Below, one piece after another: positions 57,421 through 64,000 of a stretch of DNA of 64,000 nucleotides. Every line of letters begins with the position of its first letter. Position 1 is the first letter of the stretch. The position numbers and the translations under genes are program-made. The stretch is from Caldisericum exile AZM16c01 (GTDB lineage Bacteria; Caldisericota; Caldisericia; Caldisericales; Caldisericaceae), in contig NC_017096.1 of assembly GCF_000284335.1 (NCBI RefSeq), forward strand, positions 1,054,001-1,118,000, written 5' to 3'. Under the pieces are notes generated by a model, which was not told the DNA's origin, ran no database searches, and worked only from the letters and a program-made list of their open reading frames with translations.

Positions 57421-57448
57421 ATTATACAAAATTTTTGAGTTTAGTCAA
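57421..57448 (-). promoter_or_regulatory. Promoter of the rpoB-EF-G-2-rpoC transcript
   Basis: TTGACT (57443-57448), 16-nt spacer, perfect TATAAT (57421-57426) on the minus strand. The -35 overlaps the moaC stop codon; the 5' leader to rpoB is about 25 nt. Confidence 0.85.
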
Positions 57449-57920
57449 GTTTCTTTTCTCTTCTAAAATTTCCAGATTTCCCCCCTGTCTTTTCTAAAAG
57501 ATAGATTTCTCGTATTTCGATATTCTTGTCAATCGATTTGCACATATCGTAAATTGTAAGTGCAGCAATAGAAACACTTGTAAGTGCCTCCATCTCGGCT
57601 CCTGTTTTTCCTTTTAATTCAACAAAACTTTCAATTTCAATCGATGGAGGTTCATCAATTAATCTAAAAGTCAAATCGGAAAAAGTTAAATTGAGAGGAT
57701 GGCACAAAGGAATTAACTCTGAAGTCTTCTTAGAAGACATAATACCTGCAATTTTCGCAACAGTTAAGACCTCTCCCTTGTGAATTTCTCCTTGTTTTAT
57801 TTTTTCAAGCGTTTCTTTTGAAAGCACAACCTTTGCGAAGGCCCTCGCAGTTCTTAGAGTGTCCTCTTTATCTGTTACATCTACCATGTATGCCTTGCCA
57901 TTTTCATCAAATTGACTCAT
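57441..57920 (-). CDS. moaC: Cyclic pyranopterin monophosphate synthase MoaC
   Basis: A 159-residue enzyme of molybdenum-cofactor synthesis, acting after MoaA to make cyclic pyranopterin monophosphate. MVDVTDKEDTLRTA, AGIMSSKKTSELIPLCHPL (in parts) and GKTGAEMEALTSVSIAALTIYDMCK carry the active-site residues. It lies 2 nt after moaA. No moaD/E or mogA is in the window. Confidence 0.96.
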   Translation of the reverse strand: MSQFDENGKAYMVDVTDKEDTLRTARAFAKVVLSKETLEKIKQGEIHKGEVLTVAKIAGIMSSKKTSELIPLCHPLNLTFSDLTFRLIDEPPSIEIESFVELKGKTGAEMEALTSVSIAALTIYDMCKSIDKNIEIREIYLLEKTGGKSGNFRREKKLD

Positions 57921-57922
57921 AT

Positions 57923-58885
57923 TTATCCTCCCAATTCTCTCATATTTTCAATAAACTCCTTGGACCCAAGCCTAATTTCGCCATGAGCCTCAGGTTTAAC
58001 AAAAACAGCCTCTTCAAATCTCCTCTTCAAAAGTTCAAAATCCCTCTCTTTAACTGCATCTTTTATATCAACATTTATACCTGAAAAAAGGCACGGATAA
58101 ATTTTATATGTTGAAGTTAATCTCAATCTGTTGCAAGACGTGCAAAAGTGTTGGCTTACCGACGTAATAAAGCCAATCCTTCCTTTGAATCCATCAATTC
58201 GGTAGTAGAAAGCAACCTCGTGACTTACATCTTCAATCTTTGTAAGGGTGTATTCCTTCTCAAGAATTTTGAGTGCTTCTTTGTAGCCCATAAAATGCCT
58301 TTCGAAAAATGAATTCCCTTTCACTGGCATAAGTTCAATAAATCTTACAATAATATCGTTATCCTTTGCAAGGTTGGAAATTGGTATTAGATCTTCCTCG
58401 TTAATTCCCTTTAAGAGTACCGTATTAATTTTTAGAGGCGTTAAACCAACATTTATTGCTTCCTTAATGCCAAGAATAACGTCGTCAAGTTTGTTAACGG
58501 TGGTAATTTTTAAAAATACATCATTTCTTAATGAATCAAGACTTATATTTACTCTTGTCAAATTTGCTTTCTTTAAATCATACGCAATATCTTTGAGTCT
58601 ATATGCATTAGTTGTGAGAACCACCTCATCAAAGCCTATCAGTTTTGAAGTTCTTACTATATCAACAATATCATTACGTAATAGCGGTTCGCCACCTGTA
58701 ATTCTCACTTTTCTGAAACCTAAGGAATATACACCCTTCAAAATAAATTCAATATCTGAAAGACTGGGCTCCTTTGCAATTTCATCATCTTTATAGGAAG
58801 TGCAATAGGCACACCTAAAATTACACCTCTCAGTTACGGAAAATCTAAGATAAGTAATCTCCCTTCCAAACCTATCCCTAAGCAA
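57923..58885 (-). CDS. moaA: GTP 3',8-cyclase MoaA (radical SAM)
   Basis: A 320-residue radical-SAM enzyme that rearranges GTP in the first step of molybdopterin synthesis. The N-terminal cluster motif is CNFRCAYC (C21, C25, C28), with RITGGEPLLR for SAM. The C-terminal cluster is CTSC followed by PCLFSG, and the protein ends in the conserved Gly-Gly. The start is a TTG with GGAGGTG upstream, overlapping the end of the EndoQ-like gene by 8 nt. Confidence 0.96.
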   Translation of the reverse strand: MLRDRFGREITYLRFSVTERCNFRCAYCTSYKDDEIAKEPSLSDIEFILKGVYSLGFRKVRITGGEPLLRNDIVDIVRTSKLIGFDEVVLTTNAYRLKDIAYDLKKANLTRVNISLDSLRNDVFLKITTVNKLDDVILGIKEAINVGLTPLKINTVLLKGINEEDLIPISNLAKDNDIIVRFIELMPVKGNSFFERHFMGYKEALKILEKEYTLTKIEDVSHEVAFYYRIDGFKGRIGFITSVSQHFCTSCNRLRLTSTYKIYPCLFSGINVDIKDAVKERDFELLKRRFEEAVFVKPEAHGEIRLGSKEFIENMRELGG

Positions 58886-60035
58886 CCTTCACCTCCCAAT
58901 CACCATATACACCATCATAGCCATATTCAAAATTTAATAAACCATTTCTAATGTGCTCTAAATATCGCAAGGTCTTATCATTAACGAAGAGTGCAACATC
59001 ATTAAGATCTGAAAAAAGTACAACATTTAACTCATTCCCAAATTCGGATATAAGTGTAAGATAAATTTTTCCCTGTTCGCTTTTCTTATACGTCCTGTTT
59101 AAGATTTCCTCAAGCGGAATAAAATAAAAATACTTCAAAGTGGATACATTGTTTTGGGGAGTTTTTCCTAATTCTTCAACCCTATGAAGAACACCTTTTG
59201 TAAGGTATTTGCCGCATACAGGACAAATCGAAACCGAAAAGTCATTTGTCTTGTATTTGCACTTTCTGTGCCCATCGAGATAATATTTCCCAAGTTGAGG
59301 AAAATTTTCTATGGTAAAATTATTCGAAACATCTTTCAAATTTTCAAATAATTCGTAAAATCCGCTTGCCTTTTTTGTCGCAGTTGCCTCTCTTCCAATA
59401 TGTGTAGGCGAATGTGAATCTGAACTTGATAAGATAGGATACATCCTGAGTTCGGAAACAGAATAAACCATCTTTGGATCAGCACTTAATCCTGTTTCAA
59501 TAAATAAGTTATCTATAAAATCTGTCTCGAAAATTTCCTTTAAACTTTCGAAATTGTTAGAAGAGCCCAAAGCACCATAATGAGGTGTAAAAATATGTGC
59601 CAAAATAATTGGAACAGATGGATTTATGTTCTTAAGGATCCTTACAAATTCTTTTGGTGTAACTTTTATGTTGGGACGTGCAATAATTTCAAAGTTCGAA
59701 AATTTTTTAAATGCTTTTTCAAATTCTTCAACGTCCTTTATTGTAGGAAAGGCAAGTACAACATGAAAACTCTTCTTTCTATCTCTTTCAAAAGTAAGAT
59801 TTACTTCTCCTGTAAGAATAAAAGGAAAATCTCCAAAATAATAGAAACCATTTTCAAAGGAAAGATTCTTACTAATTTGTTCCTTCCATTTTGGAAGAAA
59901 AATATCTCCCGTCCCTAAAATTGTAACCCCCTTAACTTTTGCATACTCAACCATATGCGGAATATCCATAAAACGGCTTGAAGGAATACTAAAAAAAGAA
60001 TGCAAATGGTAATCCAAAATATCTATTTCTTGCAT
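58878..60035 (-). CDS. EndoQ-like PHP-domain endonuclease
   Basis: A 385-residue protein. The N-terminal PHP domain has the metal-binding DYHLHS (H10, H12) and, near residue 206, SSSDSHSPTHIGR. A zinc-finger-like segment follows (GHRKC at 255-259, CPVC at 271-274), then KGVLHRVEELG. That combination matches endonuclease Q of Thermococcales and the bacterial YqxK-type proteins, which nick DNA 5' of deaminated bases (uracil, hypoxanthine) and abasic sites. Other PHP phosphoesterases lack the C-terminal finger and HRVEEL motif. It overlaps the glycosyltransferase gene by 13 nt and moaA by 8 nt. A repair role in a thermophile, where deamination is fast, is plausible. Confidence 0.8.
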   Translation of the reverse strand: MQEIDILDYHLHSFFSIPSSRFMDIPHMVEYAKVKGVTILGTGDIFLPKWKEQISKNLSFENGFYYFGDFPFILTGEVNLTFERDRKKSFHVVLAFPTIKDVEEFEKAFKKFSNFEIIARPNIKVTPKEFVRILKNINPSVPIILAHIFTPHYGALGSSNNFESLKEIFETDFIDNLFIETGLSADPKMVYSVSELRMYPILSSSDSHSPTHIGREATATKKASGFYELFENLKDVSNNFTIENFPQLGKYYLDGHRKCKYKTNDFSVSICPVCGKYLTKGVLHRVEELGKTPQNNVSTLKYFYFIPLEEILNRTYKKSEQGKIYLTLISEFGNELNVVLFSDLNDVALFVNDKTLRYLEHIRNGLLNFEYGYDGVYGDWEVKVA

Positions 60036-60694
60036 CTATAAAAAACAAGCCTTAAGGTAACAAATAAAAATTTTAAAGGGTCAATAATCTGATTAATCTT
60101 ACTTTTTGCTCTTTCCGTATATATTGTATTAATTTCAACAAAGCCAATTTTAAACCCGCACTTCGCTGCCTTTATTAGCATTTCTGTGTCAAGTTGGTAT
60201 CTCTTAGTCTCGAAGGTAATCTTTTTAACGACGTCTGTCCTAAGAACTCTATAACCTGACTGGCTATCAAGAATTTTAGTATGGCAAATAAGACTTACAA
60301 GAAACGAAGAAAAACTATTTGCAAAAATTCTTAAAGGAGGCATAACTAAAGGAGAAAATTTTCTTGCACCAACAACAATATCGTATCCCTCGCTAAGCTT
60401 ATTCATGAGTTTCGGAAGTTCGTTAGGGTCATGCTGACCATCTGCATCAAGAAGAGCAATCGTGTCAAAACCGTTATCGATCGCGTATTTAAACCCTATT
60501 TTTAAGGCATCTGCCTTCCCAAGATTCACCTCATTTCTTATAACAAATGCCCCTGCGCTTTCTGCAACAGATTTTGTATCATCAACTGATCCATCGTCAA
60601 TAACCAGAACAAAATCAACGTATTGTTTTGTTTTGATTATTACATCCTTTATATTATGTGCTTCATCTTTTGCTGGAATTATTGCAATTAACAT
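60023..60694 (-). CDS. Family 2 glycosyltransferase (DPM1/DolP-mannosyltransferase-like)
   Basis: A 223-residue GT-A enzyme: AIIPAKDEAHNI at the start, VIDDGSVDDT (31-40), the metal-binding LLDADGQHDP (81-90) and GARKF. The GYRVLRTDVV segment and the ETKRYQLDTEMLI motif are those of polyprenol-phosphate sugar transferases. No membrane helices are evident beyond a hydrophobic C-terminal patch. It may load a sugar onto a lipid carrier for envelope glycans. The start overlaps the acyltransferase gene by 7 nt. Confidence 0.88.
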   Translation of the reverse strand: MLIAIIPAKDEAHNIKDVIIKTKQYVDFVLVIDDGSVDDTKSVAESAGAFVIRNEVNLGKADALKIGFKYAIDNGFDTIALLDADGQHDPNELPKLMNKLSEGYDIVVGARKFSPLVMPPLRIFANSFSSFLVSLICHTKILDSQSGYRVLRTDVVKKITFETKRYQLDTEMLIKAAKCGFKIGFVEINTIYTERAKSKINQIIDPLKFLFVTLRLVFYRCKK

Positions 60695-61542
60695 GAATAC
60701 TCCTTAAAGTAGTCAAAGAAATGAAACCACTGAGTAGGAAATTTTTTTACAAATTCTTCAAGTGTACTTGCAAACTTTGAAACATACTGTTTTGAAAATT
60801 CAGTCTCGGAAATGTCAAAAGGAATATCAAATTCTTTGGAAAAATATACTCTATAACCACCTTTTTCACGAATAAGAGTAGCGAAAACACTTTTAGCTTT
60901 TGTTCTATATGCAAGAACCGAAGCACCTTTGGGAAACGTTACATGCCTCCCAAAAAACTCCATACAGATTCCGTCCTTATTAATATCTCTATCACTTACA
61001 ATTGTTGCAATGTCTCCTGATTTTACTCCCTTATATGCACCTAAAAATCCACCCTGAAAAGGATGCACTATTACGTTAAACCTCTTGCGCAATTCTTCGT
61101 AAAATTTTTCAACATCACTTTCTTGCTGCGGAAGGCCAATACCATGAGCTTTAAAACCAAGAGAACCTACAAGAACCCCTGCAACTTCCCAATTTCCGAG
61201 ATGTGCTGTAGGGATTACAAGTCCATTACTACCTTTGAGTTCTTTCAATTTGTTATAAACACTTTCCTCTGGTGTGAGTATTTTTATTTTATCAAAGCCC
61301 TTCACAACCACGACAAAATAATCTGCAATGTTAAGTGCAAAGTTCACATAAAAGCCAATACCGAGTGAGTATAATGCAAAACCGCTTTTATTCGTTATTA
61401 TCCTAAGATTATTTAAGACATAGGTTCTCTTTTTATCAAACCAAGATGAAAAAAAGCCTAAAAGTCGTGCGGTAAAATAAACGCATGGTAAAGGCATAAT
61501 TTTAACATAATATTTCCCAAGCTTATACCAGAATGAAAGCAT
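60688..61542 (-). CDS. LpxL/PatA-like lipid acyltransferase
   Basis: A 284-residue member of the lipid A biosynthesis acyltransferase superfamily. The HX4E active site is HLGNWE (114-119), preceded by a hydrophobic N-terminus (about 15-35), and FPKGASVLAYRTKA is a further family signature. Members acylate lipid A precursors or mannosyl-glycolipids (PatA). Neighbouring a glycosyltransferase, it more likely acylates a glycolipid, but no other lipid A genes are visible to decide. The ATG at 61542 is preferred; a TTG five codons upstream overlaps the Nudix gene. Confidence 0.85.
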   Translation of the reverse strand: MLSFWYKLGKYYVKIMPLPCVYFTARLLGFFSSWFDKKRTYVLNNLRIITNKSGFALYSLGIGFYVNFALNIADYFVVVVKGFDKIKILTPEESVYNKLKELKGSNGLVIPTAHLGNWEVAGVLVGSLGFKAHGIGLPQQESDVEKFYEELRKRFNVIVHPFQGGFLGAYKGVKSGDIATIVSDRDINKDGICMEFFGRHVTFPKGASVLAYRTKAKSVFATLIREKGGYRVYFSKEFDIPFDISETEFSKQYVSKFASTLEEFVKKFPTQWFHFFDYFKEYSC

Positions 61543-61546
61543 AACT

Positions 61547-62071
61547 TTATTCCCCAAACTTATTTCTAAACCAAAGCAACCCTACGATTGTTTTGCCGTC
61601 AATTATTTTTCCTTTATCAAGCAAATTAAACGTTTCACTTTTGGGAACCAGCAAATAATTAACTTCCTCTCCTTCATCTAAATTTATAAGTCCAATTTCA
61701 AAACTATCGGCATAAAAAAGATACAGTTTTTCATCAACAAATCCGGGAGAAGGATAAAATTCGTAAACAAATGTAAGATTTTTTGGAATAAATCCAGTTT
61801 CTTCTTCAAGTTCTCTTCTTGCACACTCAATAGGTGATTCCTTATCTTCAATCCTTCCTGCAGGAAACTCAAGAATAAAATCTTCTAATGTTGGTCTAAA
61901 CTGTTTAACAAATATAAAATTACCTTCATAAAAAGGGACAACGACAGAAGCATTTCCTCCATAAGTTACGACTTCTCTTACCCACGTGCTTCCATCTGTA
62001 TTTTCAACTTCTTTCTCGACAATAGAAAGCAATTTTCCCTTAAATACAGTTTTTCTCCTTAAAACCTTCAT
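61547..62071 (-). CDS. Nudix hydrolase, ADP-ribose pyrophosphatase-like
   Basis: A 174-residue protein with a complete Nudix box at about residues 72-94 (G, then E after five, REL, EEETGF). The upstream QFRP and EFPAG motifs are those of the ADP-ribose/ADP-sugar pyrophosphatase subgroup. It probably hydrolyses ADP-ribose to AMP and ribose 5-phosphate. It lies 7 nt after the ATPase D-subunit gene. Confidence 0.88.
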
Positions 62072-62078
62072 TATTCGG

Positions 62079-62699
62079 TTAATGTCCTCGGATGATATCT
62101 TTAATCTTCAGAAGCCTTGAAATGTTCTCCCGATCCATCTCCTCCAATTTGCCCTCAATAAACTTTATTGTTTCCTCAAGATTTGGGATCATTACGTACT
62201 CAAGGGCATTTACTCTTCTTCTTACCTTTGCAACCTCAAGTGCAATGGAATATAGTTCCTGTTCAATAGAAGCAAGTTCAATAATTCTTTCTATGAGTTT
62301 GAGAATTTCAAGAAACGTATAATCAAGCATCACTGGTGTTAAAGAATAAGGATACGCAATAGGCGAACCACTTGTTTTTTCTAAAAATGTTGGATATTTA
62401 ACATTCATTACATTCACAAGTTTATAGGATAAATCAATCTTAAAATTACTCCCTTCTAAAAGGGAGTCGAGGACTTCTTCGTTTATATCCTGGGTAGAAA
62501 TTTCAAACTTTTTTAATGCAAGAACAAATTTTTCGTCGAAATCTTTCCTCAATTCAACATATCTTTTGGACACATCGAGGAAATTTTTCATCAAACCTTC
62601 AAGTTTGTCTTTTAAAAGTTTATGTCCTCTTTTAGCAAGAACAAGCCTCTCCTTTAAACGGAGAAGCTCCATTCTTGTTGGATTTACATTAAGAAGCAT
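62079..62699 (-). CDS. atpD: A/V-type ATPase subunit D
   Basis: A 206-residue, mostly helical protein. The N-terminal [27 protein letters not shown] is the family hallmark, and the C-terminal coiled coil ([18 protein letters not shown]) forms the central rotor shaft. It starts 11 nt inside the end of the B-subunit gene. The A/V type is common in archaea and in some anaerobic bacteria. Confidence 0.94.
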
Positions 62700-64000
62700 T
62701 GCTCTCTACCTCTTTTTTAAGGTACTTCGAAAGATACTTTTCAATGAATTGAGGTTTAACTCTCTTAAGTTCTTCAACAGGAAGCATTGAAAGGAGTTTC
62801 CAACCAATTTCAAGAGTTTCCTCTATAGACCTATTTTCATATTCGCCTTGTTTTACGAAGTTTCTTTCAAACTCATCTGCGAATTTTACGTGCATTAAGT
62901 CAACGGGAGTTAATGCGCTTTCACCCAATACTGTTAGGAGTTCACGTGCTTCTCTTCCTCTTGCATAACTTGCAAAGAGCTGGTTCATAATACTTGCGTG
63001 ATCTTCTCTTGTTTTCCCAGGACCAATTCCTTTATCTTTTAGCCTCGACAAACTTGGCAAAACATCTATTGGTGGATAAATGCCTTGCTGATACAAACTT
63101 CTACTCAAGAAAATCTGCCCTTCGGTAATATAACCGGTTAAGTCTGGAATTGGGTGGGTTTTATCATCTTCTGGCATTGTTAAAACTGGTATTTGAGTAA
63201 TTGATCCTTTTTTACCTTTAATTCTTCCTGCTCTTTCATAAATTGTTGCAAGATCGGTATACATATATCCAGGATATCCTCTACGCCCAGGCACTTCCTT
63301 TCTTGCAGCAGAAATCTCACGGAGCGCTTCACAATAGTTAGTCATGTCAGTCATTATTACAAGGACATGCATTCCAAGTTCAAATGCAAGGTACTCTGCA
63401 GCAGTTAATCCAAACCTTGGAGTTGCAATTCTTTCAATTACAGGATCATTTCCTAAATTGATAAACATGACTGCTCTTTCCAATGCACCAGATTCCCTAA
63501 AACTCTTTATGAAAAAGTTTGCCTCTTCAAAGGTAATACCCATTGCCACAAAAACTACAGCAAATTTTTCCTCTTTACCTAAAACCTTTGCTTGCCTTGC
63601 TATTTGTGCGGCAAGTTGAGCATGTGGCAACCCAGATCCAGAAAATATTGGAAGTTTCTGACCTCGCACAAGAGTATTTAATCCATCAATTGCAGAAATA
63701 CCTGTTTGTATGAATTCAGATGGATAGTCTCTTGCATATGGATTGATAGGACTTCCATTAATGTCAAATTTCTTGTCTGGAATTAAAGGTGGTGCTCCAT
63801 CAATAGGCTTTCCAGAACCATCAAAAATTCTTCCTAAAATATCAGGCGAAACACCCAATTCAACACCGTGTCCCAAAAATTTTACTTTAACTTCTCCAAG
63901 GCTCAAGCCCGAAGTTCCTTCAAAAACCTGAATGAGAGCCATATTTCCATTAACTTCAAGGACTTGCCCTCTTTTTATTGTTCCGTCAGCGGTCTTTATT
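62689..64000 (-). CDS. atpB: A/V-type ATPase subunit B, N-terminus cut by window edge
   Basis: At least 436 residues are visible; the frame stays open past the ATG at 63942 to the window end, reading GQVLEVNGN just before it. Subunit B normally begins about 20-30 residues farther upstream, so the true start is outside. Visible motifs are [18 protein letters not shown], the degenerate P-loop of the non-catalytic subunit, [21 protein letters not shown] (in parts), [14 protein letters not shown] and [10 protein letters not shown]. With subunit D it belongs to an ion-translocating ATPase. The A subunit should lie just beyond 64000. Confidence 0.95.

Follow-up and report, generated by a model that had tools for sequence, protein, structure and literature searches.

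Does a gene wedged between a glycosyltransferase gene and moaA in the thermophile Caldisericum exile AZM16c01 encode endonuclease Q (EndoQ), a nuclease for deaminated bases, and does its setting among membrane and cofactor genes say anything about its role? The gene (58878-60035, minus strand, ATG start, 385 amino acids) was analysed in a window of 64,000 nucleotides (nt), which covers bases 1,054,001-1,118,000 of the genome, a single contig of 1,558,103 bases with 99.98% completeness; positions are those of the window. Judged from its sequence, the product is a divergent member of the EndoQ family, a branch of a known enzyme family, and we predict with a probability of roughly 85% that it acts as a bacterial EndoQ cutting 5’ of uracil, hypoxanthine and abasic sites. 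Characterised EndoQ enzymes come mainly from archaea and Bacillus (PMC4357722, PMC6202378). No paper bringing EndoQ and Caldisericum together was found in the open-licence library searched.

Family assignment and conserved residues

The initial annotation had recognised EndoQ from the motifs HRKC, CPVC and HRVEEL, all of which are found in the translation, and named TIGR00375 as the profile by which this identity could be judged. In NCBIfam the protein indeed matched TIGR00375 with an E-value of 4.9e-41 over residues 8-379, covering 371 of the 374 profile positions. The second match was weak (E 0.11) and only to an unrelated lipoprotein family, and neither histidinol phosphatase nor any other PHP family was among the NCBIfam matches to E 1. 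A search of the PDB to E 1 returned three matched sequences, all of them EndoQ, the best being the Pyrococcus furiosus enzyme (PfuEndoQ, 5zb8; E 8.2e-43), whose residues 6-380 aligned with residues 8-380 of the window protein at 126 identities in 358 aligned residues. With a profile built from 11 sequences, EndoQ was matched at E 5.1e-83, and the only non-EndoQ molecule was Transcription factor E at E 0.25. The confident structural matches are confined to EndoQ, and the profile and PDB searches support the annotation's assignment. A different PHP phosphoesterase, for instance one resembling histidinol phosphatase, that merely looks like EndoQ is extremely improbable: the similarity is nearly full length and includes the zinc-finger and C-terminal parts, and no other PHP family came up to E 1 among the NCBIfam models or PDB chains.

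Residues were mapped through the PDB-search alignment with PfuEndoQ. Its D6, H8, H10, E76, H84 and H139 correspond to D8, H10, H12, E77, H91 and H147 of the window protein, and its G169, S171, D193 and H195 to G182, S184, D206 and H208, all of them kept. E76, H84 and H139 are reported to hold the catalytic zinc, the substitutions E76A, H84A and H139A abolish activity, and H139, G169 and S171 keep normal T and A out (PMC8307549); these damage-pocket residues are thus among those retained. Moreover, E76, H84 and H139 are present in all 30 complete Caldisericota copies, a set that includes the window and from which the fragments in genomes G002, G014 and G040 were left out. In two copies from other genomes (G051, locus L055, 5938-7305; G052, locus L056, 5650-7278) S171 is replaced by Ala and H195 by Arg, and the G052 copy additionally carries Asn for D193; these two proteins may be altered or inactive.

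As an EndoQ, the enzyme would bind DNA at an abasic site or at a deaminated base, namely uracil, hypoxanthine and probably xanthine, and would flip the damaged nucleotide into a pocket that lies between its PHP and zinc-binding domains. Metals held on PHP residues would then cut the phosphodiester bond 5’ of the lesion, leaving 3’-OH and 5’-phosphate ends for resynthesis.

Several observations weigh against this prediction. The TIGR00375 score of 141.4 bits is far under the family cut-off of 326.6, and scores are likewise far under it in all 33 matching genomes of the 54 Caldisericota genomes searched. A Pfam-A search with the protein gave nothing to E 0.01, and an AlphaFold model built from a two-sequence alignment reached a mean predicted local distance difference test (pLDDT) value of 33, unusable as a structural test. 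The zinc finger keeps CPVCG and three of its four cysteines, the first (C249 in PfuEndoQ) being replaced by H256; this His-Cys-Cys-Cys arrangement, in place of the strict four-cysteine form, occurs in each of the 30 complete Caldisericota copies. Finally, a second HhH-GPD glycosylase is encoded in the same genome near 850,605 (locus L068, 1369-2094; closest to a 3-methyladenine glycosylase model, below its cut-off), and it could handle hypoxanthine too.

The low scores throughout the phylum, the invariant Cys-to-His change in the finger and the presence of a separate pathway for uracil in this genome would all suit a PHP nuclease of the EndoQ fold whose substrate choice has shifted, for example towards abasic sites or a single deaminated base, the finger change having altered the damage pocket. 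However, histidine is a common zinc ligand, and the pocket residues reported for uracil and hypoxanthine are those that have been kept. We consider such a shift unlikely and retain the assignment as a divergent EndoQ with the substrate range predicted above.

Gene order around the EndoQ gene

According to the initial annotation, the gene is embedded in an ATPase-lipid-moa operon and overlaps both neighbours. Both statements agree with the Pfam assignments and coordinates of the surrounding genes (Table 1). From the ATP synthase subunit B gene to the MoaC gene the intergenic distances are, in order, -11, 7, -11, -7, -13, -8 and 2 nt, and 48 nt separate the MoaC gene from rpoB. EndoQ is probably expressed from this ATPase-Nudix-acyltransferase-GT2-EndoQ-moaA-moaC run, whose co-transcription we infer. 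Overlaps are ordinary here: in a mechanical call of open reading frames (ORFs) in the window, 27 of 67 adjacent co-directional pairs overlap and 41 are no more than 10 nt apart, so that the overlap of the EndoQ gene is not special. The best promoter-like site in the scanned stretch (57448-57421, minus strand, 11 of 12 consensus matches) stands just upstream of rpoB and may set it apart from the moa genes that end the run; such sites are not enriched in this stretch, with 24 found against a mean of 21.4 (standard deviation 4.4) in shuffled sequences.

Table 1. EndoQ gene of the window and the genes of its run.
Feature	Position	Strand	Basis
EndoQ-family endonuclease gene, ATG at 60035	58878..60035	-	TIGR00375 and PDB matches, residue mapping
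Zinc-finger segment HRKC...CPVC (H256, C259, C271, C274)	59214..59270	-	Alignment to PfuEndoQ
GT2 glycosyltransferase, directly upstream, 13-nt overlap with EndoQ	60023..60694	-	Pfam
LpxL-type (lipid A) acyltransferase family	60688..61557	-	Pfam
Nudix hydrolase, closest models NudE and YffH-AdpP (under their cut-offs)	61547..62071	-	
V/A-type ATP synthase subunit D	62079..62699	-	Pfam
V/A-type ATP synthase subunit B	62689..63942	-	Pfam
MoaA (GTP 3’,8-cyclase), TTG start, 8-nt overlap with the 3’ end of EndoQ	57923..58885	-	Pfam
MoaC	57441..57920	-	Pfam

In the family to which C. exile belongs (f1), the GT2 gene is directly upstream of EndoQ in all 18 genomes (17 plus the window) and moaA directly downstream in 16, the exceptions being G017 and G008. 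The 13- and 8-nt overlaps recur in the four other Caldisericum genomes examined (loci L049, L052, L058 and L061). The GT2-EndoQ order is therefore old. Families f2, f4 and f7 contribute 15 loci; in the stretch available at each of them, shortened in some cases by contig ends, none of the window's neighbour genes was matched. Outside f1, EndoQ adjoins a HIT-domain gene in L034 and a gene for an Fpg-type DNA glycosylase in G052 (L056, by Pfam) and G051 (L055, read by eye). Thus the proposal that EndoQ is co-expressed with membrane and cofactor genes and not with other repair genes describes the gene order of f1 but fails for G052 and G051, and the Nudix hydrolase in the window's own run further qualifies it.

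The constancy of the GT2-EndoQ pair in f1 could be taken to mean that the placement is functional, with EndoQ output coupled to genes for energy, envelope or molybdopterin. This appears quite improbable given that moaA does not adjoin in two of the 18 genomes, that the other families lack matches to these neighbours in the stretches available, and that overlaps are common in the window. We conclude that EndoQ sits in an ordinary compact gene run, and that its operon position carries little weight.

Between the Nudix and acyltransferase genes, a gene for a XerD/XerC-like tyrosine recombinase is present in G022 (L041, 8701-9618). Gaps of 897-917 nt occur at the same position in nine other f1 loci, and the Caldisericum loci have no room for such a gene.

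A wider contig scan, whose reach was limited to close relatives, yielded one locus, in ZAV-07, a metagenome-assembled genome of C. exile (L032; counted once together with G009). This nearest named relative carries an EndoQ with 76% protein identity to that of the window. Against this copy the ratio of non-synonymous to synonymous differences (pN/pS) is 0.25, which indicates purifying selection on EndoQ; the Nudix and acyltransferase genes give 0.25 and 0.23, and the six remaining genes in the comparison range from 0.01 to 0.20. EndoQ is kept, yet within the run it belongs to the genes that change faster. A phage, plasmid or catalogued-defence role for the gene was also considered and is unsupported: plasmid and phage sequences had no tblastn match to the window protein or to the L033 protein, a scan of viral contigs with the 11-sequence alignment and two peptide patterns gave 20 pattern hits and no relatives (a more diverged copy could be missed), and PHROGs and PADLOC yielded nothing to E 0.1.

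Distribution and repair partners in Caldisericota

At E <= 0.001, TIGR00375 matched in 33 of the 54 Caldisericota genomes, none of them over the cut-off, and the 21 genomes of families f3, f5 and f6 had no match. Uracil-DNA glycosylase (UDG) was detected in 48 of the 54 genomes by Pfam and in 48 by the family-4 model, endonuclease V (EndoV) in eight, nfo in 41 (28 over the cut-off) and xth in 34 (33 over the cut-off). Family f1 combines EndoQ in all 18 genomes, C. exile AZM16c01 included, with UDG in 16 and EndoV in none; the two without a UDG match are G010 (56% complete) and G015 (77%). In an unrooted, long-branched tree of the 30 Caldisericota copies and PfuEndoQ, f2, f4 and f7 each grouped together, f1 was split with f4 among its rows, and PfuEndoQ stood beside f7. 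Since the tree is unrooted and its branches are long, we make no claim of transfer from it.

In the genome of AZM16c01 itself, family-4 UDG, nfo and xth all score over their cut-offs, and an Nth-like protein (207 bits) falls just under its cut-off of 211.7. EndoQ is thus probably not the sole uracil enzyme of this genome, and would serve as a backup to the family-4 UDG at this base. Profile searches of the genome found neither EndoV nor an AAG-type glycosylase. Because EndoV was not found, EndoQ is the leading candidate for hypoxanthine incision.

A different combination was observed in genus g11 of family f2 (G002-G005, with completeness of 100, 100, 87 and 100%), where EndoQ and EndoV were matched in all four genomes and UDG in none of them by either of two profiles. 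This genus may be a UDG-less bacterial lineage in which EndoQ replaces UDG. All six genomes of the phylum that lack a UDG match have a match to EndoQ; four of these belong to one genus and two are only 56% and 77% complete, and we treat substitution between UDG and EndoQ across the phylum as a lead, not a statistic.

The C-terminal tail and relation to known EndoQ enzymes

The C-terminal PIP box of Thermococcus EndoQ is reported to bind PCNA, and bacterial homologues are described with a clamp-binding consensus; such motifs are common and not universal, Methanomicrobiales being a stated exception (PMC4858679). The PIP-deletion variant of PfuEndoQ lacks residues 411-424 (PMC4858679). The window protein ends in ...VYGDWEVKVA and has no LF or PIP-like tail, so that a clamp-interacting motif is missing. 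Among the 30 Caldisericota copies, 17 carry LF within the last 18 residues (e.g. QISLF at the very end). By family, the LF tail occurs in 4/4 copies of f2, 5/5 of f7, 8/17 of f1 and 0/4 of f4, and in none of the five copies of the genus Caldisericum. Beyond the conserved DG..G, the 17 LF copies continue for 13 to 23 residues and the five Caldisericum copies for 7. Six of the other eight copies without LF run 4 to 7 residues past this motif, and those of G017 and G007, which have a variant ending, extend 15.

We infer from its motif that the LF tail of the relatives would bind the beta clamp. The pattern fits loss of the tail in Caldisericum and some others; the tree is not strong enough for losses to be counted or gains excluded. 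Since the C-terminal clamp-like tail is absent, the Caldisericum EndoQ may act independently of the sliding clamp, incising DNA without being recruited by it. More broadly, it is conceivable, if doubtful, that the Caldisericota branch with the His-finger took over parts of base repair, standing in for the absent EndoV in f1 and for the absent UDG in g11, where 5’ incision would be the main uracil route, and becoming clamp-independent in the tail-less Caldisericum.

What is new is modest: a bacterial phylum with a His-finger branch of EndoQ, the lack of a tail in Caldisericum, and a possible replacement of UDG by EndoQ in one related genus. Nevertheless, the occurrence of EndoQ, UDG and EndoV in differing combinations within one bacterial phylum constitutes a natural comparison of glycosylase-first with direct-incision repair of deaminated DNA. 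Likewise, a clamp-like tail that is present or absent among close relatives offers a clean test of the role of this tail.

With PfuEndoQ (PF1551; PDB 5zb8, 7k30-7k33) the Caldisericum protein shares near full-length homology, all the PHP and pocket residues named above and the CPxCG half of the finger; it differs in overall sequence, at 35% identity, in the histidine at the first zinc position and in lacking the C-terminal PIP-box region. The EndoQ of Bacillus pumilus is reported to be active (PMC6202378), and it and that of B. subtilis resemble the Caldisericum protein as bacterial homologues with reported activity (PMC6202378, PMC8307549). By description rather than by sequence, the Bacillus enzymes differ from it through the C-terminal clamp-binding motifs attributed to bacterial homologues (PMC4858679), which the Caldisericum protein lacks. 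From many of the other Caldisericota EndoQ proteins it differs in lacking the LF tail that 17 of the 30 copies carry, whereas the His-Cys-Cys-Cys finger and the zinc-holding E76, H84 and H139 are common to them all.
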